This document shows positions 2,794 through 19,171 of a stretch of 64,000 nt of DNA, piece by piece. A model generated the notes under the pieces. The model was not told the origin of the DNA. It worked only from the letters and a program-made list of their open reading frames with translations, and did not search any database. Within the stretch, counting starts at the first letter, position 1. Each line of letters starts with the position of its first letter. Origin of the DNA: Nocardioides nitrophenolicus (GTDB lineage Bacteria; Actinomycetota; Actinomycetes; Propionibacteriales; Nocardioidaceae); assembly GCF_016907515.1 (NCBI RefSeq), contig NZ_JAFBBY010000001.1, forward strand, positions 372,001 to 436,000, in the 5' to 3' direction. The position numbers were made by a program, and so were the translations under genes.

Positions 2794-3753
2794 CTACTCG
2801 GAGGGTGCCGGGTCCGCGGGTGTGACCTCCGTCGCGGCGCGTTGGCCCTGGCGCTCGAGCCGGTCCAGCCGGCGGTCCTCCCGCTCGGCCTCCTTCATCG
2901 ACGAGCGCACCCACTGGGCGAAGAGCACGACGAAGAACACCAGCCCGACCAGGTCCCCCGCGCCCCACAGGATCCCGCCGGCGAGCTTCTGGTCGTCGTA
3001 GGGATCCGGGAGCCACGCCCCGAGCGGACCGTCGTGGAGAGAGGGGTACCAGTCGCCGCCCAGCAGCGTGGACTGGCCCATGATCGTGACGCCGAGGAAG
3101 GCGTGGAAGGGCAGCGTCATCACGGTCAGCAGCACCCGGAAGGGGTGGCCGACCCGGCCGGGCAGCGGGTCCACGCCGACGATCGGCCAGAAGAACAGCG
3201 CGCCGACCACGACGAGGTGGACGTGCATCATCTCGTGGACGTACGTCGAGCGCAGCGACGCCTCGTACCAGCCGGAGAAGTAGAGCGCCCACGGCGAGAT
3301 GACGTAGAGCCCGAAGGTGAGCGGCGGGAAGCCCAGCACCTTGGCCAGTCGGGAGTGCAGCAGCGCGAGCAGCCAGCCGCGCGGGCGGCGGGGCAGGGTG
3401 CGCAGCGCGAGCGTGACCGGCGCGCCCAAGGCCAGCGAGAGCGGCACGATCATCGACAGGATCATGTGCTGGACCATGTGCGCGCTGAGCAGCACCGTGT
3501 CGTAGGCCGCCAGCCCGGACGAGGTCGCAAGGTAGAAGGCGAGCATCCCGACGCCCCAAGCAAGGGTGCGCCCGACCGGCCAGTCGTCGCCCCGGCGGCG
3601 CAGCGTGAGCACGCCGACGACGTAGAGGCCGGTGGCCCAGACGGTGATGATCAGCGGCAGCGGCGCGATGCCCCACTGGGTGAGCAGCGCCCCCGCGTCG
3701 AACGGCGGCAGGCTCTCGACCCCCGCGCCCCCCGCTGACACCACCAGTCCCAC
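2794..3753 (-). CDS. ctaG: Cytochrome c oxidase assembly protein, CtaG/caa3 type
   Basis: Multi-pass membrane protein of 319 residues thought to help insert copper or assemble the aa3 oxidase. About seven hydrophobic helices are visible, with family histidine motifs within or next to them: SAHMVQHMI, HEMMHVHLVVVG and LPFHAFLG. Such histidines and methionines fit a copper-handling role. The C-terminus is a charged cytoplasmic tail (EAEREDRRLDRLERQ). Start is GTG 3753. The gene diverges from ctaE, which begins 113 nt away, so one intergenic region probably drives both assembly factor and oxidase subunit. This is the Pfam caa3_CtaG type, not the unrelated Cox11-like CtaG of proteobacteria. Confidence 0.88.
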   Translation of the reverse strand: MGLVVSAGGAGVESLPPFDAGALLTQWGIAPLPLIITVWATGLYVVGVLTLRRRGDDWPVGRTLAWGVGMLAFYLATSSGLAAYDTVLLSAHMVQHMILSMIVPLSLALGAPVTLALRTLPRRPRGWLLALLHSRLAKVLGFPPLTFGLYVISPWALYFSGWYEASLRSTYVHEMMHVHLVVVGALFFWPIVGVDPLPGRVGHPFRVLLTVMTLPFHAFLGVTIMGQSTLLGGDWYPSLHDGPLGAWLPDPYDDQKLAGGILWGAGDLVGLVFFVVLFAQWVRSSMKEAEREDRRLDRLERQGQRAATEVTPADPAPSE

Positions 3754-6551: not shown

Positions 6552-8256
6552 CATGAGCAAGGTCGCCACGACCAACGGCACGACGCCCGCCACCACCAAG
6601 GGTGGGAAGGCCGCCGGAGCCATCGCCAACTGGGCCGACGAGCGCCTCGGCCTCGGCTCGGCGATGAAGAAGAACATCCGCAAGGTCTTTCCGGACCACT
6701 GGTCGTTCATGCTCGGCGAGATCGCCCTGTGGAGCTTCGTCGTCGTCCTGCTGACCGGTGTCTTCCTGACCCTGTGGTTCGACCCGAGCATGACCGAGGT
6801 GCAGTACGACGGCGCCTACGACCCGCTGCGCGGCGTCCACATGTCGTCGGCGTACGCCTCCTCGCTCGACATCTCCTTCGACGTCCGTGGCGGTCTGCTC
6901 ATGCGGCAGATGCACCACTGGGGCGCGATGATCTTCATCGCCTCGATGATGATCCACATGCTCCGCGTCTACCTGACCGGTGCGTTCCGCAAGCCGCGCG
7001 AGCTGAACTGGATCATCGGCTGCCTGCTGCTGCTGCTCGGCACGATCGAGGGCTTCACCGGCTACTCCCTCCCCGACGACCTGCTCTCCGGCACGGGCGT
7101 CCGGGCGGCCGACGGCTTCATGAAGGCCTCGCCGGTCATCGGCTCCTACATGTCGTTCTTCCTGTTCGGCGGCGAGTTCCCGGGTGACGCGATCATCCCG
7201 CGCTTCTACGCCATGCACATCCTGCTCATCCCGGGCCTGCTGCTCGCCCTGGTGGCCGCCCACATGCTGCTGCTCGTCTACCACAAGCACACCCAGTGGC
7301 CTGGTCCCGGCCGGACCGAGCAGAACGTCGTCGGTTACCCCATGCTCCCGGTCTACGCGGCCAAGGCGGGCGGCTTCTTCTTCATCGTCTTCGGCACCAT
7401 CGCCACGATGGGCGGACTGTTCTCGATCAACGCGGTCTGGAAGTACGGCCCCTACGACCCGTCCAAGGTGACCGCGGGCTCGCAGCCCGACTGGTACATG
7501 GGCTGGCCCGACGGGCTGCTGCGCATCATCCCGGCCTGGGAGACCCACATCTGGGGCATCACCCTGTCCTGGAACGTGATGATCCCGATCCTGGTGATGC
7601 CGCCGCTGATGCTCATGATCCTGATGGCGCTGCCGTTCATCGAGTCCTGGATCACCGGCGACAAGCGGGAGCACCACCTGCTCCAGCGTCCGCGCAATGC
7701 TCCGACCCGGACCGCGATCATGGTCGCGCTGATGACCTTCTACGGCCTCTCCTGGGCCGCGGGCGGCAACGACATCATCGCGATCAAGCTGCACCTCAGC
7801 ATCAACCAGATCACGTACTTCATGCGTGGCGCCGTGTTCATCGGCCCGGTCATCGCCTTCATCATCACTCGCCGCTGGTGCATCTCGCTCCAGCGTCACG
7901 ACGAGGGCAAGCTGCTCCACGGCTACGAGACCGGTGTGCTGGTCCGCTCCCCCGAGGGTGGGTACGCCGAGAAGCACCTCCCCCTCCCCGAGGGCAAGGC
8001 CTACACGCTCACCGCCCGCGACGACGACCCGACGCCCGAGACGGTCGAGGAGATCGAGGCCTCCGGCGTCACCGGTCGCAGCGCGCGGCTGCGCAGGCTG
8101 CGGGCCAAGCTGGCCACGGTGTTCTTCGCGGACAACGTGCAGAAGCCCACGGCCGAGGAGCTGCACGAGGCTCAGCACCACGCGGAGCACGAGCTCCACG
8201 AGCTCGAGTCGCAGATCGCGGCCGGCCCCAACCGGCACGGTCCGACCGAGCACTGA
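6538..8256 (+). CDS. qcrB: Cytochrome b subunit of the bcc complex
   Basis: Menaquinol-oxidising cytochrome b, 572 residues from ATG 6538; an in-frame ATG at 6553, just after the qcrA stop, is the alternative start. Heme b ligands are visible as histidines around 126/127 and 141 in the second helix and near 227 and 242 in the fourth. The Qo-site PDWY motif occurs as QPDWYMGW. The C-terminal 130 or so residues form a charged extension (ETVEEIEASG, LHELESQIA), as in other actinobacteria. The gene ends the operon and is followed by a strong hairpin at 8273-8308. Confidence 0.96.
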   Translation: MTVGDMSKVATTNGTTPATTKGGKAAGAIANWADERLGLGSAMKKNIRKVFPDHWSFMLGEIALWSFVVVLLTGVFLTLWFDPSMTEVQYDGAYDPLRGVHMSSAYASSLDISFDVRGGLLMRQMHHWGAMIFIASMMIHMLRVYLTGAFRKPRELNWIIGCLLLLLGTIEGFTGYSLPDDLLSGTGVRAADGFMKASPVIGSYMSFFLFGGEFPGDAIIPRFYAMHILLIPGLLLALVAAHMLLLVYHKHTQWPGPGRTEQNVVGYPMLPVYAAKAGGFFFIVFGTIATMGGLFSINAVWKYGPYDPSKVTAGSQPDWYMGWPDGLLRIIPAWETHIWGITLSWNVMIPILVMPPLMLMILMALPFIESWITGDKREHHLLQRPRNAPTRTAIMVALMTFYGLSWAAGGNDIIAIKLHLSINQITYFMRGAVFIGPVIAFIITRRWCISLQRHDEGKLLHGYETGVLVRSPEGGYAEKHLPLPEGKAYTLTARDDDPTPETVEEIEASGVTGRSARLRRLRAKLATVFFADNVQKPTAEELHEAQHHAEHELHELESQIAAGPNRHGPTEH

Positions 8257-8272
8257 CCGCCTGATCGACACC

Positions 8273-8308
8273 CGAGGGGCCCAGCGGATCCATCCGCTGG
8301 GCCCCTCG
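8273..8308. terminator. Perfect 16-bp hairpin after qcrB
   Basis: The arms cgaggggcccagcgga and its exact complement are separated by the 4-nt loop tcca. It lies 16 nt past the qcrB stop and before the end of a minus-strand gene, so it can serve both strands. Only a few T follow, which is normal for terminators in GC-rich actinobacteria. Confidence 0.8.
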
Positions 8309-8402
8309 TCGTACCCGGCAGCTGGGTCGCCCGGCGGGTGGATCGACGACCCGAATGCCGGGTGCGACGCGGGAACCCGGCCCGGTGGCCGTCGGTCCCG
8401 CC

Positions 8403-9713
8403 TCAGTCCCGCTTCAGGTCCGGGTCGGTCCACATCCGCCACACGACGATCCCGATGACCGCCGCGCCGCCGCTGACGAGCCCGACGAAGAGCGGCCGCT
8501 CGCCCAGCCACCACAGGTACTCGTTGCGGGTCCAGCGGTCGTCGGCGTCGGGGAAGAGCGCGGGGCTGCTCACGGCACCGGCGGCGAACACGGCGAGCTG
8601 GAGGACGGCGACCGGGGCGAACAGCCTCCGGGCCACCCGGCCCATCCGGTGCGCGCTGAGCGCCAGGGCGGGCGTCAGGCAGGCCAGCATCTCCAGCCCG
8701 ATCCGGTAGCCGAAGAACGAGCCGCCCCCGGTGTAGCGGTTCAGCATCAGCTGGGCGAGCGTGTAGCCCGCTCCCCCGACCACCAGGGCCCGGGACCAGT
8801 CGGGGAGGTCCCGCCAGCCCCGGACCAGGGCGAAGCCGAGCACCAGGAGCAGCGGCGTCCACCACAGCATCCCCCGTCCGGGCGAGATCCACAGCCCGAG
8901 CTGGTTCACCACGTCGACGGGGCTCTGTTCGACGTTGGCGGTGAAGTCGCCGATCCGGTACGCCGCCGTCGGGCTCCACGTCCCGTACATCCAGTGCGAC
9001 CACAGGCAGGTCAGCGCCAGCAGCGCCCCGCTGGTCATCGCGACCTTGGCCGCGATCGCGGGACTCCTGCGCCACCAGGCGAGGAGCAGCCCGACCACCG
9101 CGCAGATCACCGCTGCGTGTAAACGACCCCACAGCGTGATGCCGCCGAAGACGCCGACCAGCCACCAACGCTCCCGGTCGGCGGCCCAGGCCATTCCCAT
9201 GATCCCGAAGACGGTCACCGTGTGCGGCCACATGCCGTCGGCCGCCACGCTCCACACCGGCGTGGTCAGGCCGAACAGCAGGGCCGCCAGCAGCGCCTCG
9301 CGTTGCGCCAGCCGGCGTCGGAGCACGACGTACAGCAGGGTGACGGCGGCGGCGGTGAGCACCGCGGCGGTCACGCTCGCCGGCACCGTGTCCATGTCGT
9401 GGAAGCCGAGCAGCCCGGCCAGCCGGTACGCCGGCACCGCGGCGGCGATCACCCCGGACGAGCGACCGATGACGTCGCGCCCGTCGGCCGCCTCGACGAT
9501 CCAGATCTCCCGAGTGGGCCAGTTGTTCAGCTTCGGGAAGTCCGTCAGGTCCACGAACGGCGAGCCGGTCTCGGCGATGTGCCACGACGCCAGGTTCGCG
9601 GCGAAGACGTCGAAGCTCAGCGCCCGCCCCATGGTGGCGACATAGACGACCACCAGCGCCGCGAACAGCGCCGGCGCCGCCCAGCGCGCCGTGGAGGGAT
9701 GTGGCCCGGTCAC
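8403..9713 (-). CDS. Polytopic membrane protein, copy 2 of a tandem pair (GT-C-like)
   Basis: A 436-residue protein of ten or more hydrophobic helices, clearly paralogous to the gene immediately upstream. The pair share ANLASW in the first outer loop, LTTPVWSVAADG, WPHT, LWGRLHAAVICAVVGLLLAW and FFGYRIGLE. The first loop carries acidic residues (SFDVFAANLASW, FVDLTDFP), as in GT-C enzymes that use polyprenyl-phosphate sugars. I do not recognise a named family, and the glycosyltransferase idea is an inference. Start is GTG 9713, overlapping the stop of the upstream copy (GTGA). The C-terminus WRMWTDPDLKRD resembles VRMWNDPELRRKD of the other copy. Likely part of the envelope block at 8.4-17.9 kb. 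Confidence 0.65.
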   Translation of the reverse strand: MTGPHPSTARWAAPALFAALVVVYVATMGRALSFDVFAANLASWHIAETGSPFVDLTDFPKLNNWPTREIWIVEAADGRDVIGRSSGVIAAAVPAYRLAGLLGFHDMDTVPASVTAAVLTAAAVTLLYVVLRRRLAQREALLAALLFGLTTPVWSVAADGMWPHTVTVFGIMGMAWAADRERWWLVGVFGGITLWGRLHAAVICAVVGLLLAWWRRSPAIAAKVAMTSGALLALTCLWSHWMYGTWSPTAAYRIGDFTANVEQSPVDVVNQLGLWISPGRGMLWWTPLLLVLGFALVRGWRDLPDWSRALVVGGAGYTLAQLMLNRYTGGGSFFGYRIGLEMLACLTPALALSAHRMGRVARRLFAPVAVLQLAVFAAGAVSSPALFPDADDRWTRNEYLWWLGERPLFVGLVSGGAAVIGIVVWRMWTDPDLKRD

Positions 9714-11029
9714 GACGCCCCGTCCTTCCTCCGCAGCTCGGGATCGTTCCACATCCGGACCACCACGGCGGCCAGCGCGGCGCAGGCGAGCAGCAGCGCG
9801 ATCGAGTACGCCGGCTGGTCGGCCACCCGCGCGACCAGCTCGTTGCTGTCCCAGGTGCTGCTGATCCGGGGCGCCGTGTCGGGCCCGGCGAGGGCGCCGA
9901 AGCCGAACACCGCCGCCTGCGCGACGATGACGGGGACCAGCAGCCGCCGCCCGACCGTGCCGATCCGGGGCGTGCTCAGCGCCAGCGCGGGCGCCAGGCA
10001 GGCGAGCAGCTCGAGCCCGATCCGGTAGCCGAAGAAGGCCTCCCCGCCCTTGAAGGCGTTCAGCGCGAGCTGGACGGCGGTGTAGCCGACGCCACCGACC
10101 GCCAGCGCCCGCGACCAGTCCGGCAGGGCACGCCAGGACCGCACCAGCGCGGGCAGCAGCAGGACCAGGATCGGCGTCCAGACCAGCATGCCCCGGCCGG
10201 GCGACACGAGGAAGCCGGCCAGGTTGAGCCCGTCGAGGCCCTGGTCCTGGGCGATCGAGACGAACACGCCGACATCGTAGGCAGCGGTCGGGTCCCACCT
10301 GCCGTACATCCATTGCGTCCAGACCATCATCAGCCCCAGCATCGCCCCGCAGGCCGCACCGGTCTTCAGCAGCAGGTCGGGCCGGCGCCGCCACCAGGCC
10401 AGCAGCAGGCCCACGACCGCGCAGATCACGGCGGCATGCAGGCGTCCCCACAGGGCGACGCCGCCGAAGAGCCCGAGCAGCCACCAGCGTTCCCGCTCCG
10501 CCGCCCACGCCATCCCCAGGATGCCGAGCACCGTCAGCGTGTGCGGCCACACGCCGTCGGCGGCGACCGACCAGACCGGAGTGGTCAGGCCCAGCACGAG
10601 GGAGGCGGCCAGCGCGGGACGCTCGCCGAGGCGTTCTCGGAGTGCCAGGAAGAGCAGGGTGATCGCGATCGCCGTCAGCAGCGCGGCGGTCAGTCCGCCG
10701 GGCACGATGGACATTCCGCTCGCCCCGAACAGATGCGCCAGCGCGTACGCCGGGACGGCCGCCGCGACCGTGCCCGGGGCCCGGCCGACGACATCGCGCC
10801 CGTCGGCGCGCTGCACCACCCAGGTGGCTCGCAGGTCGTTGTCGGCGAGCGCGGGGAAGCGGTCCAGGTCGGTCAGGGGCGTCCCGGTGGTCCCGATGCT
10901 CCAGGAGGCGAGGTTCGCCGACCACACGTCGAGGCTGACCGCACCGCGGGAGGCCGTGACGCCGTACCCGACGGCGAGGACGGCGAGCAGCACCGCGGGG
11001 ACCCAGGCACGTCGTGACACGCCCAGCAT
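9710..11029 (-). CDS. Polytopic membrane protein, copy 1 of a tandem pair (GT-C-like)
   Basis: A 439-residue multi-pass membrane protein and the first gene of the coupled pair. Its outer loop after the first helix reads SLDVWSANLASW and then LTDLDRFPAL. The central block TTPVWSVAADGVWPHT, RERWWL and LWGRLHAAVICAVV is almost identical to that of its neighbour, while the C-terminal outer segment (GPDTAPRISSTWDSNE) differs. That pattern suggests conserved chemistry with divergent specificity. ATG 11029 faces the GT2 gene at 11171 across a 141-nt divergent region containing an inverted repeat. It could be a glycosyltransferase acting on lipid-linked sugar, or an uncharacterised transporter. Confidence 0.65.
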   Translation of the reverse strand: MLGVSRRAWVPAVLLAVLAVGYGVTASRGAVSLDVWSANLASWSIGTTGTPLTDLDRFPALADNDLRATWVVQRADGRDVVGRAPGTVAAAVPAYALAHLFGASGMSIVPGGLTAALLTAIAITLLFLALRERLGERPALAASLVLGLTTPVWSVAADGVWPHTLTVLGILGMAWAAERERWWLLGLFGGVALWGRLHAAVICAVVGLLLAWWRRRPDLLLKTGAACGAMLGLMMVWTQWMYGRWDPTAAYDVGVFVSIAQDQGLDGLNLAGFLVSPGRGMLVWTPILVLLLPALVRSWRALPDWSRALAVGGVGYTAVQLALNAFKGGEAFFGYRIGLELLACLAPALALSTPRIGTVGRRLLVPVIVAQAAVFGFGALAGPDTAPRISSTWDSNELVARVADQPAYSIALLLACAALAAVVVRMWNDPELRRKDGAS

Positions 11030-11061
11030 TCTCGGCGGCCGGCGGCTCGCGGGCCCGGCTA

Positions 11062-11099
11062 ACCATGCAGGAATGTCCGATCGGCCATTTCTGCATGGT
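11062..11099. promoter_or_regulatory. Inverted repeat between divergent genes
   Basis: Arms accatgcaggaa and tttctgcatggt pair over 12 positions with one G-T, and the 14-nt spacer itself holds ccgatcgg. It sits between the tandem membrane-protein pair and the GT2 gene, so it could be an operator acting on both promoters or a hairpin in either leader. Confidence 0.45.
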
Positions 11100-11170
11100 C
11101 CTGAGAGGTTTCCGGTGATCGACCGCGGTCGCCGGATCTACCCTGAGCGGGTCCGTCGGGACCATTCCCT

Positions 11171-12160
11171 GTGAGGTCGATCGTGAAGCTGGTCGTGCAG
11201 ATCCCCTGCCTCAACGAGGAGGAGACCCTCCCCCTCGTGCTGGCGAGCATCCCACGCGAGATCCCCGGGATCAGCGACATCGTCGTCGTGGTGATCGACG
11301 ACGGCTCCACCGACGCCACGGTCGAGGTGGCCCGCGCGTACGGCGTCGAGCACGTCGTACGGCATCGAGGCAACCAGGGCCTGGCCCGCTCGTTCACCGA
11401 CGGCGTGAACTACGCGCTCAGCATCGGGGCCGACATCGTCGTCAACACCGACGGCGACAACCAGTACCCGCAGCACCGGATCCCGGACCTGGTGGCGCCG
11501 ATCCTCGAGGGCCGGGCCGACATCGTGATCGCGGACCGGCAGACCGGGTCGATCGGTCACTTCTCCCCCACCAAGAAGCTCCTGCAGCGGGTCGGGAGCG
11601 CTGTGGTCAACCGGGCCGCCGGCACCGACCTGCCGGACGCGGCGAGCGGCTTCCGCGCCTACTCCCGCACCAGCCTGATCCGGCTCAACACCGTCACCCG
11701 GTTCTCCTACTGCATGGAGACGATCATCCAGGCGGGCTACAAGCGCCTCGCCATCGCGAGCGTGCCGATCGTCACCAACCCGAAGACCCGCGAGTCGCGG
11801 CTGTTCACCTCGACCCGGCAACACGTGCTGAAGTCGGCGGCGGCGATCATCCGCGCCTCGATCATGTACCGGCCCTACATGGTCTTCGGCTGGCTGGCCG
11901 CGCTCTTCGCGGTCGCGGGGCTGGTGCCCTACGCCCGCTATGCGGTGTTGATCGCGCTCGACGAGGACGGCGGCCACGTCCAGTCGCTCCTCGTCGGCGC
12001 CGCCCTGCTGCTGATGGCCTTCCTGAGCGTGATGCTCGGCATCCTGTCCGACCTGATCCGCACCAACCGCTCGCTGATCGAGACCGGGCTCGAGCACACC
12101 AAGGAGATCCGACTGGCCGCCCTGGCCGCAGACCCCGCTCCGGCCGGACGGGGCCGATGA
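11171..12160 (+). CDS. GT2 glycosyltransferase of the dolichol-phosphate mannose synthase type
   Basis: A 329-residue family 2 glycosyltransferase that probably loads a sugar onto polyprenyl phosphate at the inner face of the membrane. The GT-A fold shows PCLNEEETLP (about 12-21), VIDDGSTDAT and the metal-binding DGD of VNTDGDNQYP; an acceptor region with SGFRAYSR follows. Two membrane helices lie near the C-terminus, around 236-260 and 275-295, as in polyprenyl-phosphate sugar synthases with anchors. Start GTG 11171; a second GTG four codons on is possible. The stop overlaps the next start (ATGA). It would supply the lipid-linked donor for GT-C-type enzymes such as the adjacent pair. Confidence 0.88.
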   Translation: MRSIVKLVVQIPCLNEEETLPLVLASIPREIPGISDIVVVVIDDGSTDATVEVARAYGVEHVVRHRGNQGLARSFTDGVNYALSIGADIVVNTDGDNQYPQHRIPDLVAPILEGRADIVIADRQTGSIGHFSPTKKLLQRVGSAVVNRAAGTDLPDAASGFRAYSRTSLIRLNTVTRFSYCMETIIQAGYKRLAIASVPIVTNPKTRESRLFTSTRQHVLKSAAAIIRASIMYRPYMVFGWLAALFAVAGLVPYARYAVLIALDEDGGHVQSLLVGAALLLMAFLSVMLGILSDLIRTNRSLIETGLEHTKEIRLAALAADPAPAGRGR

Positions 12161-12864
12161 CGGCGAGGTCGGCGTACCTGCGGATCACCGGCGTCGCCGG
12201 CGGGCTGCTCGGCCGCATCGGGCTGCTCGGCCTGCTCGATCGGTGGGCGCCCCGGTCCCGTCTCGCCACCTGGCTCCGCTCGCTGTTCGCGATCTACGAC
12301 CTGGAGGGACTCAGCGGCCTCGACGTGCCGTGGTGGACCTTCGCCTCCGCGGACCTCGTCGACGCCCACCTGGCCGCGCGGCCGGGCGCCCGGGTCTTCG
12401 AGTGGGGATCGGGCGCGTCCACGCTGTGGCTGGCCCGGCGCGCGGCCGGCGTCCACTCCGTGGAGCACGACGGCGCCTGGGCGGACCGGCTCCGCGCCGT
12501 GCTGCCCGCGCACGTCGAGCTCACCCTGGTCCCGCCCGTCGCGAGCACGCGACCGGAGGTGGGCTCGCGGAAGAAGGGCCACCAGGGGCTCGACTTCACC
12601 GACTACGTGAGCGCGATCGACGCGACCGAGGGTGTCTACGACGTCATCGTGGTCGACGGGCGGGCCCGGGAGGCCTGCCTCGACCACGCCCTGCACCGGC
12701 TCGCGCCGGACGGTCTGCTCGTGTTCGACAACGTCGACCGGCGCCGCTACCGCGACGCCATCGACCGGCTCGGCGCCCAGGTGACGGTCACCACCACCCG
12801 CGGTCTCACCCCGGCACTCCCCTACCCGACCCGGACCGCGTTGCTCCGCCGGGCGACCTCGTGA
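12157..12864 (+). CDS. Methyltransferase-like protein
   Basis: A 235-residue protein with a Rossmann-type core: VFEWGSGASTLWLARR matches motif I of class I SAM methyltransferases, VHSVEHD looks like motif II with its acidic end, and YDVIVVDGRARE fits motif IV. The N-terminal 50 residues are partly hydrophobic (GVAGGLLGRIGLLGLL), perhaps a membrane contact. The substrate is unknown; in this position a sugar or polysaccharide is plausible. It overlaps the GT2 gene by 4 nt upstream and the flippase-like gene by 4 nt downstream, so the three are one translational unit. Confidence 0.7.
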   Translation: MTARSAYLRITGVAGGLLGRIGLLGLLDRWAPRSRLATWLRSLFAIYDLEGLSGLDVPWWTFASADLVDAHLAARPGARVFEWGSGASTLWLARRAAGVHSVEHDGAWADRLRAVLPAHVELTLVPPVASTRPEVGSRKKGHQGLDFTDYVSAIDATEGVYDVIVVDGRAREACLDHALHRLAPDGLLVFDNVDRRRYRDAIDRLGAQVTVTTTRGLTPALPYPTRTALLRRATS

Positions 12865-13736
12865 CCCGGGCCCGGGCACTCGACCTGGTCCGCGCCGGCT
12901 TCGTTCTCGTCGCACTGGGCTGCGCGGCATGGGGCTTCCACGGCCGCTGGGGCGAGATCGCCGACGCCGCCGGCCGGGTGGGCCCCGGCCGGCTGGTCGC
13001 CGGCTGGCTGCTCGCCACAGCCGGGCTGTGCCTCACCGCCGTGCTCTGGCGGCACTGCCTGCGGTGGGCCGGCAGCGAGCTGGCGGTCCCGGCCGCCGCC
13101 CGGGTCTTCTTCGTCGGCCAGCTCGGCAAGTACATCCCGGGCTCGATCTGGAACTTCGCCGCCCAGGCACAGCTCGGCCGGCCGCTCGGCGTACCGGCCC
13201 GGGCGAGCCTCACCGCCTCCGGGGTCTTCCTCCTGGTCCACACCCTCACCGGCGCGGCCGCCGGCGCCGCCCTGGTCGCCGCCGGCCCGCTGGACGCGCC
13301 CGGCCCCCGGTGGGTCTGGGCCCTCTCGGCCGCGGCCGCCCTCGCCGCTCTCGCCGTCCTGGCCGCGGGCTCCCGCGGCCGGCTCGCCGTGCGGGGCCGC
13401 GACCTCGCCGGCGCGGTCGGGCTCATGGGCCTGGTCTGGACGGCGTACGGCGCCGCGCTGCTCGCGCTGCTCCCCACGCTCGGCCCCACCGACCTGCCCC
13501 TGGCGGTCGGGGTGTTCGCCCTCGGCCACGTCGCGGGCGTCATCGTCGTGTTCGCACCCGCCGGGCTCGGCGCCCGCGAGGCGACGATGATCGCCCTGCT
13601 CGCCCCGGCTGTCGGGTTCGGTGCCGCCACCGCGGCCGCGCTGCTGGTCCGGATCGTGCACACGGTGGCCGACCTCGTCCTCGCCGCAGCCTCCTGGTCG
13701 GCCTCGAACCGGGGTCAGAACGGACAAATTTCGTAG
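12861..13736 (+). CDS. Flippase-like membrane protein, LPG synthase TM-domain family
   Basis: A 291-residue protein of seven or eight hydrophobic helices resembling the membrane domain of lysylphosphatidylglycerol synthases (UPF0104). Family-type motifs are GQLGKYIPGSIWNFAAQ (about 90-106) and PAGLGAREATMIALL (about 233-247). It lacks the cytoplasmic aminoacyl-transfer domain, so it is not a full MprF. In glycan clusters such stand-alone proteins are proposed to move lipid-linked intermediates, which is an inference here. GTG 12861 overlaps the preceding stop. It is the last gene of the GT2 unit; 92 nt separate it from the large secreted protein. Confidence 0.75.
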   Translation: MTRARALDLVRAGFVLVALGCAAWGFHGRWGEIADAAGRVGPGRLVAGWLLATAGLCLTAVLWRHCLRWAGSELAVPAAARVFFVGQLGKYIPGSIWNFAAQAQLGRPLGVPARASLTASGVFLLVHTLTGAAAGAALVAAGPLDAPGPRWVWALSAAAALAALAVLAAGSRGRLAVRGRDLAGAVGLMGLVWTAYGAALLALLPTLGPTDLPLAVGVFALGHVAGVIVVFAPAGLGAREATMIALLAPAVGFGAATAAALLVRIVHTVADLVLAAASWSASNRGQNGQIS

Positions 13737-13828
13737 TCCTCCCGGACTATTCGACCTGGGAAAGGCGTCCCTGCTCCCGCGATCCGACCTACTGTGGGCG
13801 CGCTCACAGCACCACCCAAGGGGGAACC

Positions 13829-16800
13829 GTGCCACTGCCCGCTCCGCTCACTCGCCTCGCCGTCGCGGGCGCGCTCGCGCTGACCGGGGTGCTGGTGGCG
13901 ACCCCGACCGCCACGGCGGCGCTGGACGCTCCCACCCAGGTGACGGCCGACATCAGCGCGGGCAGTGCGCAGATCAGCTGGAACCGGGTCGCCGGGGCGA
14001 CCGGCTACCAGGTGCAGGTCGACGACAACGAGGACTTCTCCTCGACGCTGGTCAGCGTCACGACCGTGAACGACAGCTATGTCACGCCGAGCCAGATGCC
14101 CGTCGGGACGCTGTATGTCCGGGTCCAGGCCACCGGTGGTCCGTGGAGTGCCACCGTGAGCCAGCAGCGCGGCATCCTGGCCGCACCGAGCGCACCCCTG
14201 CCTGCCAGCGGCACGACGCTGACCGCCGGCTCCGCCCCGTCCCTCACCTGGAACGCCGTGGCGGGCGCGTCGAGCTACCAGGTCCGGATCGCCACCACGG
14301 ACTCCTCGGAGTGCGAAACGGCCCAGGTGAAGACCGGCGGCTGGACGAGCGAGTCCACCCGGTTCGTCCTGCGGGACCGGGTGCTCGCCCCGGGCCAGCC
14401 CTACTACTGGTGCGTGCGCGCGACGCTGCCCAACAGCGTGTTCTCCGAGTGGACGTCGCCGCGGCTGTTCGACCTGGCCAACCTCGGCGCGCCCGCGCTG
14501 GTGAGCCCGGGGAACGGCGCCACCAGCCTGAACGGCGACGTCACCTTGGACTGGGACCCGAAGCCAGGCGCCGCGACGTACCAGGTCCAGGTCGGCTGGG
14601 ACGAGCAGTTCAGCACGGGAGTCCGGGTCGACACCACGATCACCGCCACCCGGTGGAGCCCCAACCCCAACGTGCTCGACAACCGCACCTGGTACTGGCG
14701 GGTGCGCGCCAAGGACGCCAACGGCAATCCGCACCACTGGTCGAACGTCCGCCACTTCGTCCGGAGCTGGACCGACCAGCCGGTCCTGCAGTGGCCGCTG
14801 GACGACGCCGCCGAGCCCACGGCCGACATGTACTACGAGTGGCGCGCCGTACGCCGCGCCGACTACTACACCCTGCAGACGGCCTGGGACGCGGACTTCA
14901 CGATCGGTCGCAAGGAGTGCCGCTCCTCCCACACCACCTACGTCGGCGAGTGCGGCGGCAACCCGAACGGCTGGACCTACTGGCGGGTCCTGGCCAACGA
15001 GGACGACACCCTCGGGATCAACGCCAGCGGCAACACCTACACCCACACCACCCAGACCGAGGTCGGCTCGGCCCAGGTCCGGCGCTACCAGTCCGTGATC
15101 GCCCGCCCCACCAAGGTGAGCCCCGCGGCCAACGCCACCCTCGCCGCCGGCCAGGTCCCCACGCTGACCTGGAACCCGGTCACCTTCGCCGCGACCTACC
15201 AGGTCAAGATCACCAACCTCGGCAACGGCGACGAGATCACGAAGACGACGGCGACCACCGCCTTCACCCCGCGCGCGCTGCTCGACCCCGGCACCTATGC
15301 CTGGGACGTGGTCCCGCGGACGATCGACGGCGTCGCGATCGGCTATCTCGAGCTGTCCGCCCAGCGCCGGTTCACGGTCAGCGCCTATGCGGCCGACGGA
15401 CCCGTGGCCGGGGCACCGGCGCTGCTGACCGACGGTGTCGACGGGTACCGCGCGCCGACGCTGGCCTGGCAGCCCGTCACCGGCGCGACGAAGTACGTCG
15501 TGCGGGTCCGCCCCCAGGGCGACAGCGCCTGGCAGCAGATCTCCGACACCTTCGCCTACCCGGCCGGCCAGGACAACACGACCTCCTTCGCCGCGCCCGG
15601 CACCTACGAGTGGAAGGTCCTGCCGTCCGCCGGAAGCACGCCCCTGGCCGAGAGCTCCGTCGGCACCTTCACCGTCAAGCCGCTCTACGACCCGGACGCG
15701 CCGACGGCGATGAGCTACGGCGACTGGCTCGCCGGCACCGAGATCACCGCGGCGCTCAGTGGCAACACGATGTACGGCAACGCGGGCGACACCGCCGACC
15801 GCTGCGAGCTGACGACCGCGACGACCGGCTGCACCGACCTGCGCCAGACGCCGATCCTTCGCTGGCGGCCCCGCGACACGGCGGCCGAGAACCCGAACAT
15901 CGCGTTCTACAAGCTGTCCCTGTACGCCGACCAGGCGCGCACCACCACGGTCCCCGGCTACAAGGACATCGTGGTGCGCCGCCACGCCTGGATGCCGGTC
16001 GTTCCGCTCGCGGACGCCCAAGCCGGCCAGGCAGGCAGCACGTCGGCGTACTGGGTGCAGCTGATCCCCTGCGGCTACACCGCCTGCGCCACCGCCGCCA
16101 GCGTCGACCCCACGATCAACGCCCCGCTGGCGCACGCCTTCAACAAGTCGTACGACAAGGCGGTCACGGTCTCACCCACCAACGGCGCCACCGTGCCGAT
16201 CACCGACACCGCCGCGGCCAACGACCTCGTCTTCGAGTGGAAGGACATGCTCGAGGCCCAGGCCCAGGCGCTCCCCGGCGGCACCTCGCTCGGCAACAGC
16301 CACGCCGACACCGAGGCAGTGAAGTACCAGCTCAGCTACAGCCGGCTCGAGAACTTCTCGAACGCGGTGACAGTGAGCGTCGACCACACCTACTACACCC
16401 CGCCGGCCCCCCTGAGCGACGGCGACGTGTACTGGAAGGTGCGGGCGATCGACGACGACGGCAAACCGCTCAACTGGAGCGACACCGCTCAGTTCACGAT
16501 CACCTCCCCCACGACCACCGGCCTGACCCCGTCGGCCGCCGCCTCCACCGTGAGCGGCAGGCAGGCGCTGACCTGGGACTACGCGCCCTATGCGCCGACC
16601 TACGTGCTCGAGGTCTACGCCGGCGGCATCCCCCAGGGCACCAGCACCACGGACCGCAAGGTCAGGGAGACCGTCTACGGCACCTCGTGGACGCCGACGA
16701 GCAGCCTGCTCACCGCCGGGCTCTACACCTGGCGGGTGCGCGGCATCGACGCCAACGACAACCAGATGCGGTGGAGCGAGTGGGCCCAGTTCACCGTCTC

Positions 16801-17938
16801 GCCGGACTCGCCCGCCCAGAACCTCCCGGCAGCCGGAGCGAACATCGCGCCCCAGGACCTGCTGATGAGCTGGGGCCCGGTCGAGGGCGCCAGCCAGTAC
16901 AAGGTCGAGTGGCGAGTCGCCAACAGCACCACCGTCTCCTCGCAGACCACCACCGGTCTCGCCTGGGCGCCGACCGGTGCGCTCGGGACGGCCGGCACCT
17001 GGGAGTGGCGGGTGACCGGCTACCGCGGCAGCACGCCCTGGGGCTCGGCCACCGCCTGGCGCACCTTCCAGGTGGCGCTCAAGCCGACCGCGACCACCGC
17101 CGTCAGCATCCCCACCAGCAGCACGGTCGGCGCACCGTTGACCCTCACGCCGCCCGTCTGGGACTTCGGGGACGTCGCCGACACGACCTACCAGTGGTTC
17201 CGGGGCAGTACGGCGATCCCCGGCGCCACCGGGAAGACCTACGTCGTGACGGCCGACGACTTCGGCAAGGCCCTCAAGGTGGTCGCCACACTCCAGGTCG
17301 CCGGCTACCAGGACGGGGTGTCCACCAGCGGCACGGTCACCCCGGGTGCGGTCGCGGCGCCCAGCGTCGTCACCGCCCCGGTCGTCGGCGGGGACCCGCG
17401 GGTCGGCGGCAGCCTCAGCGTCACCACGGGAGCCGTGTGGAGCAATGGCGCCACGACCACCTACCAGTGGCTGCGCGACGGCAAGACGATCAGCGGCAAG
17501 ACCGGCGAGACCTACGCCGTCCAGTCGGCCGATGCCGGTCACACCGTCTCGGTCCGGGCGACCGGGCGACTCGCCGGCCACGCGGACGGCGTGACCGAGT
17601 CCAACCGCGTCTCGGTGGCCCCCGCCGCGAACACCAAGGTATCGACCAGCACCACCCTCACCCGCTCCGCCGCGAAGCTGCGCCGGGGCAAGAAGGTGAC
17701 CCTCACGGCCGTGGTGACGGCCGCCGGCCGTACCGGGCTCGGGACGGTCACGATCGAGATCGTCATCCCGCGCAAGTCCGGCGTGAAGACGAAGACCATC
17801 ACCCTGAACGGCGCCAACACCGGCGTCACCAAGATCAAGCTCAAGGTGAAGGGCAAGTACAAGTTCCGCGCGGTCTACAAGGGGATGACCAACACGACCG
17901 GCTCCAGCTCGGCCTGGGTGACGGTCAAGGCGCGCTGA
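13829..17938 (+). CDS. Large secreted fibronectin-III-like repeat protein
   Basis: A 1369-residue exported protein. GTG 13829 follows the ribosome site aaggggga. The N-terminus is a Sec signal peptide with likely cleavage after TPTATA (about residue 30). I count about ten beta-sandwich modules of the fibronectin-III kind, each with a core such as SWNRVAGATGYQVQV, LTWNAVAGASSYQVRI or LDWDPKPGAATYQVQV, and usually ending in YWRVRA or similar. Two modules with YQWFRGSTAIPGA and YQWLRDGKTISGK follow, then a final Ig-like domain (STTLTRSAAKLRRGKKVTL) with a lysine-rich end. There is no LPXTG motif, C-terminal helix or recognisable enzyme domain, so it is probably released or held by the wall or glycan. 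It directly follows the GT2-methyltransferase-flippase unit. The function is unknown; adhesion or surface-layer scaffold is plausible. Confidence 0.8.
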   Translation: MPLPAPLTRLAVAGALALTGVLVATPTATAALDAPTQVTADISAGSAQISWNRVAGATGYQVQVDDNEDFSSTLVSVTTVNDSYVTPSQMPVGTLYVRVQATGGPWSATVSQQRGILAAPSAPLPASGTTLTAGSAPSLTWNAVAGASSYQVRIATTDSSECETAQVKTGGWTSESTRFVLRDRVLAPGQPYYWCVRATLPNSVFSEWTSPRLFDLANLGAPALVSPGNGATSLNGDVTLDWDPKPGAATYQVQVGWDEQFSTGVRVDTTITATRWSPNPNVLDNRTWYWRVRAKDANGNPHHWSNVRHFVRSWTDQPVLQWPLDDAAEPTADMYYEWRAVRRADYYTLQTAWDADFTIGRKECRSSHTTYVGECGGNPNGWTYWRVLANEDDTLGINASGNTYTHTTQTEVGSAQVRRYQSVIARPTKVSPAANATLAAGQVPTLTWNPVTFAATYQVKITNLGNGDEITKTTATTAFTPRALLDPGTYAWDVVPRTIDGVAIGYLELSAQRRFTVSAYAADGPVAGAPALLTDGVDGYRAPTLAWQPVTGATKYVVRVRPQGDSAWQQISDTFAYPAGQDNTTSFAAPGTYEWKVLPSAGSTPLAESSVGTFTVKPLYDPDAPTAMSYGDWLAGTEITAALSGNTMYGNAGDTADRCELTTATTGCTDLRQTPILRWRPRDTAAENPNIAFYKLSLYADQARTTTVPGYKDIVVRRHAWMPVVPLADAQAGQAGSTSAYWVQLIPCGYTACATAASVDPTINAPLAHAFNKSYDKAVTVSPTNGATVPITDTAAANDLVFEWKDMLEAQAQALPGGTSLGNSHADTEAVKYQLSYSRLENFSNAVTVSVDHTYYTPPAPLSDGDVYWKVRAIDDDGKPLNWSDTAQFTITSPTTTGLTPSAAASTVSGRQALTWDYAPYAPTYVLEVYAGGIPQGTSTTDRKVRETVYGTSWTPTSSLLTAGLYTWRVRGIDANDNQMRWSEWAQFTVSPDSPAQNLPAAGANIAPQDLLMSWGPVEGASQYKVEWRVANSTTVSSQTTTGLAWAPTGALGTAGTWEWRVTGYRGSTPWGSATAWRTFQVALKPTATTAVSIPTSSTVGAPLTLTPPVWDFGDVADTTYQWFRGSTAIPGATGKTYVVTADDFGKALKVVATLQVAGYQDGVSTSGTVTPGAVAAPSVVTAPVVGGDPRVGGSLSVTTGAVWSNGATTTYQWLRDGKTISGKTGETYAVQSADAGHTVSVRATGRLAGHADGVTESNRVSVAPAANTKVSTSTTLTRSAAKLRRGKKVTLTAVVTAAGRTGLGTVTIEIVIPRKSGVKTKTITLNGANTGVTKIKLKVKGKYKFRAVYKGMTNTTGSSSAWVTVKAR

Positions 17939-17956
17939 GCCGACGGGCTCCGCGAC

Positions 17957-19171
17957 TCAGCTCAGCGCGGAGCCCGCGACGTAGTCGTTCCACGCGACGT
18001 TCCAGTCGCCCCAGCCGTTGCCGGGCTCCATCGGGCGGTCGGTGCCGACGTACTCGACGACGTCGCCGCGGCGGGTCATGGAGTAGAGCCAGGCGGCGTT
18101 GTCGGTGCTCATGCCGGTGCAGCCGTGGGAGACGTTGGCGCGGCCCTGGGAGCCGACGGACCAGGGCGCCGCGTGGATGAACTCGCCGGAGCTGGTCAGC
18201 CGCATCGCCCACTTGACGTCGTCGATGTCGTAGGCCTCGGCGGAGCCGCGGGCGATGCCGACGGTCTCGGAGTTCATCCGCTTCTGGGCGTACTTCTCCA
18301 TGATGACCTTGACGCCCGAGCGCGTGGTGAAGCCGGCCTTGCCGGTCGTGATCGGCAGCGTGCGCAGCAGCTTGCCGTTCTCGAAGACCTTCATCTGGTG
18401 GGTGCGGGCGTTGACCTTGTAGACGTGGGCGGCGCCGATCTCGAAGTCGACCTTGCGGTCCTCCTGGCCGTAGATGCCGCCGCCGGCGCTGACGCCGTTG
18501 ACGGCGACGTCGACGCTGACCTTGGTGCCGGCCTGCCAGTAGGCCTCGGGGCGCCAGTGCGCCTCGGTGCTGCTGACCCAGTGCCACGAGCCGGGCTGCG
18601 CGGGCGTGGAGGTGACGCTCATGTGCTTCTCGAAGCTGGCCTGGTCGGTGACCGGGACGTCGAAGGTGACGATCACGGGCATGCCGACGCCGACCGTCTC
18701 GCCCTGCAGCGGCGCCACCGAGGCGTAGGTCTGCTGGCTCAGGCTCAGCGCCTGGGTGGTGAAGGTCGACACGCTCCGGACCTCCTTGCCGTCACCGTTG
18801 CGGGCCACCGCCCGCACCCGGTAGCGGGTGTCGGGCTCGAGGCCGCCGGAGGACACCCAGCGGGTGCCGTCGGCGCGCAGCTCGCCCTGGACGCGGCCGG
18901 CCTTGGACTTGACCACGACGGTGGTGAGGGTGCCCTTCTCGGCCTTGACCCGGACCACCTTGTCGACGGGTACGCCGGACGCCTGGTCCTCGACGTTGGT
19001 CGTCACGATCGCCTCGGAGGCCGCCGCGGCGGTGGTCTCGTCGGCCGCCGGGTCGTCGCCGCCCGGCACGAACCCGGAGCCGTCGCAGGCGGCGGCGACG
19101 AGCGCGACGGCCGCCAGGACGGCGGCGGCGCGCAGCGCGCGCGATCGGGAGCGTGTCAACGGGGAAGGCAC
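17957..19171 (-). CDS. L,D-transpeptidase lipoprotein with Ig-like domains
   Basis: Forms 3-3 cross-links in peptidoglycan on the outer face of the membrane. The 404-residue protein begins with a signal and lipobox ending ALVAAAC, placing the lipidated Cys at 29. Two Ig-like domains follow, with a TTNVEDQASGVPVDKVVRV segment in the first. The YkuD catalytic domain carries SHGC, with His349 and Cys351 as active-site residues. This architecture matches mycobacterial LdtMt2-type enzymes. The gene lies between the fibronectin-repeat protein and ctaF, converging with the former at 18 nt. In related genomes I would expect an Ldt here, so it probably belongs to the ancestral locus and not to the accessory block. 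Confidence 0.92.
   Translation of the reverse strand: MPSPLTRSRSRALRAAAVLAAVALVAAACDGSGFVPGGDDPAADETTAAAASEAIVTTNVEDQASGVPVDKVVRVKAEKGTLTTVVVKSKAGRVQGELRADGTRWVSSGGLEPDTRYRVRAVARNGDGKEVRSVSTFTTQALSLSQQTYASVAPLQGETVGVGMPVIVTFDVPVTDQASFEKHMSVTSTPAQPGSWHWVSSTEAHWRPEAYWQAGTKVSVDVAVNGVSAGGGIYGQEDRKVDFEIGAAHVYKVNARTHQMKVFENGKLLRTLPITTGKAGFTTRSGVKVIMEKYAQKRMNSETVGIARGSAEAYDIDDVKWAMRLTSSGEFIHAAPWSVGSQGRANVSHGCTGMSTDNAAWLYSMTRRGDVVEYVGTDRPMEPGNGWGDWNVAWNDYVAGSALS

Follow-up and report, generated by a model that had tools for sequence, protein, structure and literature searches.

In Nocardioides nitrophenolicus, a block of six genes lies between the two halves of the bcc-aa3 respiratory locus. We analyzed it within a window of 64,000 nucleotides (nt), positions 372,001–436,000 of contig NZ_JAFBBY010000001.1 (assembly GCF_016907515.1), which is part of a 5.8-Mb single-contig genome. 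The block is probably a multi-component transmembrane glycosylation cassette that was gained by horizontal transfer and set in the gap between the convergent qcrB and LDT-ctaFDC genes, with a probably unrelated gene of a large secreted protein beside it. On present evidence, the cassette consists of five genes, PMT-A, PMT-B, GT2, MT and FLP. What the analysis shows is the gene set, the folds predicted for PMT-B and MT, the fact that GT2, MT and FLP are linked and diverge in a correlated way, and that a search of our genome found no GtrA. An earlier note on this DNA had described six genes in two divergent units between qcrB and LDT-ctaFDC, and the coordinates and strands agree with it: the block spans 8403–17938, PMT-A and PMT-B being on the minus strand and the other four genes on the plus strand. 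The features of the locus are as follows.

8403..9713, minus strand: PMT-A, homologue of PMT-B and on that basis a GT-C-type membrane glycosyltransferase, 436 amino acids (aa); PF13231 below cut-off
9710..11029, minus strand: PMT-B, predicted GT-C-fold membrane glycosyltransferase, 439 aa; predicted structure and invariant residues
11183..12160, plus strand: GT2, putative polyprenyl-phosphate sugar synthase (DPMS/AglJ type); PF00535, PDB 5mlz
12157..12864, plus strand: MT, predicted class I S-adenosylmethionine-dependent methyltransferase, O-methyltransferase-like; predicted fold, PDB 3cvo
12861..13736, plus strand: FLP, PF03706/UPF0104 flippase-family protein; PF03706 over cut-off
13829..17938, plus strand: large secreted Ig/fibronectin-like repeat protein, 1369 aa; Pfam; neighbour, probably outside the cassette
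qcrB end at 8256, plus strand: ctaE-qcrC-qcrA-qcrB, left flank of the block
8273..8308, plus strand: hairpin with a perfect 16-bp stem, separating qcrB from the first inserted gene; likely terminator of qcrB
17957..19171, minus strand: Big_10-YkuD L,D-transpeptidase (LDT), resident gene and right edge of the insertion site; Pfam
right of LDT, minus strand: ctaF, ctaD and ctaC; gene mapping

GT2 and MT overlap by 4 nt, as do MT and FLP. We searched 96 genomes, namely our own, 58 congeners and 37 genomes of the same order. Our own included, matches were found in 19 genomes for MT (E 1e-10), 26 for FLP (E 1e-10), 12 for GT2 (E 1e-50) and 14 for PMT (E 1e-5). The co-occurrence check that had been suggested for these genes revealed linkage. 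In all 18 MT-bearing congeners FLP lies within 6 kb of MT, and GT2, in either of two forms 27–78% identical to our own, lies within 7 kb of it; 11 congeners have a GT2 with 66–77% identity. In the congener G051, a PMT gene is divergent from GT2, MT and FLP in exactly the same qcrB-LDT gap, and in G008, G012 and G053 the same four genes are located hundreds of kb away from qcrB. The divergent layout of a GT-C gene and GT2-MT-FLP was also found in these four congeners and at the loci L191 and L194. The eight congeners nearest by qcrB (86–98% identity) gave no match to MT, to FLP (E 1e-10 for both) or to GT2 (E 1e-50); a distant GT2 with 27% identity is present in G035. Mantel tests gave r = 0.82 for MT and FLP (n = 18), 0.65 for MT and GT2 (n = 19) and 0.52 for GT2 and FLP (n = 18). 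Against qcrB, r was 0.27 for MT (n = 14, p 0.03), 0.34 for FLP (n = 13, p 0.02) and −0.02 for GT2 (n = 15, one of which, G045, is not a cassette GT2); the rows of these tests are related to one another, and the p-values are loose. In our reading, GT2-MT-FLP is one unit moving between lineages, with some vertical signal.

The cassette also occurs beyond the genus. Scanning named genomes with the MT alignment gave at least 56 loci, 46 of them with a called MT. The listed loci belong to Nocardioides, other Nocardioidaceae, Cellulomonas, Actinophytocola, Actinokineospora, Nakamurella, Acidimicrobiales and other actinobacterial metagenome-assembled genomes (MAGs), as well as to roseobacters, other proteobacteria and a Leptolyngbyaceae MAG, with weaker matches in Bacteroidetes and others. 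Within three genes of MT, the 46 listed loci carry GT2 in 35 cases, FLP in 27 and a GT-C-like long membrane protein in 33, and none of these in six. Near MT, 35 of 256 genes are GT2 and 27 of 256 are FLP; farther off, the counts are 3 and 0 of 332 (Fisher p about 1e-10 each, a descriptive value, as queries and cassettes share origin). The GT-C type was called by length and hydropathy, or by similarity to cassette members, and such proteins also make up 22 of the 332 genes more than three genes from MT. Adjacent same-strand partners of MT overlap it by 4 nt in 25 of 51 cases. A second form of the cassette consists of GT2b, a membrane protein of about 670 aa, MT and FLP. Carriage of the cassette by phages was considered and rejected: viral contigs gave 14 loci, where the MT relatives are all distant (27–45% identity). 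Three apparent PMT copies at the locus L192 were rejected: the pieces (144, 98 and 228 aa) look like fragments of frameshifted genes, and so do the GT2 and FLP pieces of the same locus.

The two membrane proteins, which the earlier note had called tandem paralogs, are indeed 57% identical. They score 18.2 (PMT-A) and 21.4 bits (PMT-B) against PF13231, whose cut-off is 26.1, and PF02366 is not among their matches at E up to 0.1; by these profiles, neither passes as a GT39 protein O-mannosyltransferase. No credible relative of PMT-A, PMT-B or FLP was found among PDB sequences. The AlphaFold structure of PMT-B, predicted from a 58-sequence alignment, has a mean predicted local distance difference test score (pLDDT) of 93.3 and resembles the GT-C enzymes ArnT, ALG12, ALG9, OST and AglB, with ArnT, ALG12 and OST on top. 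D34, R83, Y95, R336 and E340 are invariant across the 58 sequences, and D34 lies where the second helix begins. In GT-C enzymes, an acidic residue at about this place is catalytic. Judging by the model, PMT-B is a GT-C-fold membrane glycosyltransferase.

The polyprenyl-type character of GT2 and the methyltransferase-like character of MT, both proposed earlier, were borne out. GT2 matches PF00535 (E 6.4e-24), and a PDB search with a limit of E 1e-10 gave a single match, a dolichol-P-mannose synthase (5mlz, E 3.5e-15). It scores 104 bits against the AglJ model, below the cut-off of 325, and two hydrophobic segments are present in the listed GT2 homologues. By sequence only, GT2 thus appears to be a GT-A-fold, membrane-linked polyprenyl-phosphate sugar synthase. 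MT scores 25.7 bits against PF13578, just below the cut-off of 26.3, and is related to PDB 3cvo (E 1.1e-10). Its predicted structure (pLDDT 95.9) is that of a class I methyltransferase. Foldseek ranks O-methyltransferases first, and in VIA-align their Z scores and those of RNA methyltransferases are intermixed, about 2 units apart at most. The fold is not selective for the substrate; therefore, methylation of a sugar rests on context.

FLP scores 48.4 bits against PF03706 (LPG_synthase_TM, UPF0104), whose cut-off is 33.4, in agreement with its first description as flippase-like. In 2015, UPF0104 proteins were predicted to be flippases (PMC5898192), reportedly by Makarova and colleagues, and for a UPF0104 protein encoded in a glycolipid operon the flippase activity is described as unverified (PMC12713373). 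For polyprenyl-phosphate sugars, the literature as available names GtrA-type and Wzx-type flippases (PMC8035078) and adds the MATE family (PMC11127046); direct evidence of flipping by such proteins is described there as mostly lacking. The cassette contains no small GtrA-family flippase, and the PF03706 protein occupies it instead. A search of our genome with the GtrA profile PF04138 gave no match at E up to 0.001; the control search with this profile matched in 7 of 14 genomes, and GtrA was found in 132 of the 147 genomes of the genus searched, our own being among the 147. Near MT at the named loci, three membrane proteins of GtrA size were found, two of which read as PF03706 fragments and one of which does not. 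For our cassette, the absence of GtrA means only that none is there to be borrowed.

Taken together, these identities suggest the following pathway. GT2 would charge polyprenyl phosphate with a sugar at the cytoplasmic face, MT would O-methylate the lipid-linked sugar or its precursor, and FLP would flip the lipid-linked sugar in the usual place of GtrA. On the outer side of the membrane, PMT-A and PMT-B would then transfer the sugar to an acceptor, most likely a polysaccharide of the cell envelope. We infer these four activities, as well as the sugar and the acceptor. That a lipid-linked sugar is used outside the membrane had already been proposed; it stands as a deduction, because the cassette combines a polyprenyl-type GT2, a flippase-family protein and a GT-C-fold transferase.

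With the same chemistry, the acceptor could be a protein, so that PMT-A and PMT-B would O-glycosylate secreted proteins or lipoproteins. We consider this unlikely: both proteins are under the PF13231 cut-off, our genome has a separate PF02366 (PMT) protein at 1.35 Mb, and the GT-C fold says nothing about the acceptor. It is still less likely that the product made and flipped by GT2 and FLP is a glycosylated phospholipid, to be extended by the GT-C enzymes. A parallel exists in GpgSDF, which makes GlcN-phosphatidylglycerol (GlcN-PG) and in which GpgF is a UPF0104/COG0392 protein of a glycolipid operon, with flippase activity unproven there according to the available text (PMC12713373). However, GpgS is a GT4 enzyme and GpgD is a COG3233 deacetylase, and the Pfam/NCBIfam matches of the block include neither family; beside its UPF0104 protein we found matches to GT2, methyltransferase and PMT-like families. 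In addition, GT2 is DPMS-like and recurs beside GT-C-type membrane proteins, and the GT-C class is described, in what is available of PMC11127046, as using lipid-linked donors.

The earlier note had united all six genes in one system, with the large secreted protein as a candidate acceptor or anchor. In favor of a dedicated acceptor or anchor, the large protein gene starts 92 nt past FLP on the same strand, and of the 1369 residues of its product 187 are Thr and 100 are Ser. Its distribution, however, makes such a system highly improbable. Of the mapped congeners, 17 have a relative of the protein upstream of trpD (in an eighteenth, G023, the relative is short and split), and in 13 of the 17 the protein lies near qcrB without a cassette. 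A cassette is present in 4 of the 17 congeners with the large protein near qcrB and in 14 of the 41 others (Fisher p 0.54). Under wider definitions the ratios are 5 of 18 and 13 of 40 when G023 is counted (p 0.77), and 5 of 21 and 13 of 37 for strong matches anywhere (p 0.56). In the other fetched cassette stretches, the large protein was not found beside the cassette; the exception in these stretches is a partial copy at the locus L204, about 5 kb from the cassette GT2, which is there because that cassette adjoins the trpD-side site. The six genes as a single unit were therefore rejected, on present evidence, as far as the large protein is concerned. Relatives also occur at other places, at least in G046, G026 and G036; family matches were taken as the best six candidates or fewer per genome, among the matches listed. 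In the tree, our copy is on a long branch (1.61) with G028, G006, G038 and G036, and its origin is therefore unsure. The protein matches Ig_Rha78A_N and DUF4962 above their cut-offs, and fn3 is absent from its Pfam matches at E up to 1. Thus, the name "fibronectin-repeat protein" is acceptable in the loose sense of Ig/fibronectin-like repeats and not for fn3 itself. The large protein is probably only a neighbour of the cassette.

A number of observations weigh against a transmembrane glycosylation cassette of five genes. In G001, G011, G015, G039 and G052, MT is 3–6 kb from FLP with other genes between them. The distances of MT and FLP are weakly correlated with those of qcrB, so vertical descent may account for some of the spread. 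Within three genes of MT, 11 of the 46 listed loci are without a recognised GT2 and 19 are without a recognised FLP; L208, L227 and L232, which have no FLP match, carry nearby weak PF03706 proteins below the cut-off (E 1.6e-3 to 1.1e-7), and L208 and L232 are two of the 19. PMT-A and PMT-B score under the PF13231 cut-off, and the MT fold suits RNA and small-molecule methyltransferases about equally. A second PF03706 protein is encoded elsewhere in our genome, at 1.18 Mb, and the flippase role of PF03706 is itself a prediction in the available text of PMC5898192. GtrA is also absent in the close relatives G014, G020 and G034, which have no MT; its absence is therefore a clade trait that is not tied to the cassette.

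The qcrB-LDT gap (8257–17956) is an insertion hot spot, and the content of our genome is one of many. We examined the surroundings of qcrB in 50 of the 58 congeners; G026 is without a right edge, which leaves 49 with both edges. The right edge is LDT in 47 of them and ctaF in two (G023 and G028). The gap is a hot spot because no gene is called in it in 22 of the 49 congeners (in two of these, G029 and G046, it exceeds 1 kb), and one to eight genes are present in 27. This comparison of the qcrB-to-ctaF interval, which had been proposed earlier, showed that the content varies and is not identical across relatives, and the gene-free gaps support the view of the block as inserted accessory DNA. 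The GC content at third codon positions is 0.94–0.96 in the six genes and 0.96–0.99 in qcrB, LDT and ctaD. It is near that of the flanking genes, so composition gives no hint of a foreign origin. No 9-mer direct repeat is common to the three edge stretches compared. A perfect stem of at least 12 bp is present 3' of qcrB in 31 of the 50 mapped congeners. A scan of 8200–18000 found no promoter-like sites and three terminator-like sites, against 1.6 expected.

Thirteen congeners have a PMT relative, and in seven of them it lies no more than 12 kb from qcrB; in two more it is at about 41 kb, and G031, with its distance undetermined, was counted as not near. The chance expectation is well under one congener, without correction for shared ancestry. 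Around the locus, cassettes occupy the qcrB-LDT gap (our genome and G051) and the trpD side (G058, N. zeae L198, ChNu-153 L199 and Root1257 L204). One could suppose that the bcc-aa3 surroundings are a preferred home of GT-C cassettes, as the cassette would act on extracytoplasmic proteins of that region (CtaC, LDT or QcrC), using a methylated sugar that the UPF0104 protein flips. In the available part of PMC6593405, CtaC (SCO2156) and an L,D-transpeptidase (SCO4934) of Streptomyces coelicolor are listed as glycoproteins. We hold such a functional link to be very doubtful, and hot-spot insertion explains the same proximity of PMT to qcrB.

The claim that no named system has this set of genes stands in part. 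No named GT2-MT-UPF0104-GT-C system was found in the literature, surveyed mostly by titles and abstract openings with subscription papers sparse; three-component and multi-component transmembrane glycosylation, however, is named in the texts as available (PMC8035078, PMC11127046). As described there, the GtrA-GtrB-Gtr* and GtcA-CsbB-YfhO systems likewise combine a GT-A/GT2 lipid-sugar synthase, a flippase candidate and a GT-C transferase, whereas the cassette has PF03706/UPF0104 for GtrA, an added methyltransferase and often more than one GT-C protein. In the pentofuranose three-component system (MATE flippase, GT136; PMC11127046), an unrelated flippase family is also proposed where GtrA is usual, but the donor comes from polyprenyl phosphoribose synthase and not from a GT2, and a methyltransferase is not described in the text available. 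The archaeal arCOG00899/UPF0104 neighbourhoods, with predicted glycosylation, unite UPF0104, an AglD-like GT2 and a PMT/STT3-related protein; they belong to an archaeal glycosylation context, and a methyltransferase is unmentioned in the available text (PMC5898192). GpgSDF of Pseudomonas aeruginosa has a putative UPF0104 flippase beside a glycosyltransferase, but its GT4 and deacetylase make GlcN-PG, and the operon as described in the available text is without GT-C (PMC12713373). The gsf cluster of Actinoplanes missouriensis is a proposed actinobacterial extracellular glycosylation set that includes a methyltransferase-domain protein, yet its flippase is of the GtrA type, its membrane transferase is said to be non-GT-C, and UPF0104 is unnamed in the text available (PMC13390465). 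Actinobacterial Ppm1-Pmt protein O-mannosylation, as far as the source is available, also pairs a polyprenyl-phosphate sugar with a membrane transferase (PMC12757957); it differs in that PMT-A and PMT-B are below the PF13231 cut-off and our genome has the separate PF02366 protein.

Whether UPF0104 proteins flip lipid-linked sugars has a natural test case in this recurrent cassette, which has such a protein in the flippase place and lies in a genome that gave no GtrA match. MT, being conserved, points to a methylated envelope sugar, and the locus marks a hot spot of insertion around the respiratory genes of Nocardioides.

Other sets of genes were seen in the qcrB-LDT gap of congeners. A protein of about 350 aa (cluster c62), read as a luciferase-type monooxygenase, is present there in nine congeners and stands alone in seven. 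In G014 the gap holds a six-gene set, read as polysaccharide synthesis. In G034 (L069/L070) it holds a PMT relative, and in G035 (L077/L078) two PMT relatives; in both congeners these stand with a 233-aa GT2 and a 116/124-aa protein, which in G034 is a DUF2304 protein (PF10066, E 4.9e-17; this profile scan covered G034 only). The sets of G034 and G035 are another combination of GT-C, GT2 and a small membrane protein. Within the window, a CtaG-type oxidase assembly protein (PF09678, E 4.2e-84) is encoded at 2794–3753, adjoining ctaE. Upstream of trpD there is a second variable site, which in 17 congeners is occupied by the family of the large secreted protein; in the window, positions 1–1347 of this site encode a membrane protein that has no Pfam match (E up to 0.01).

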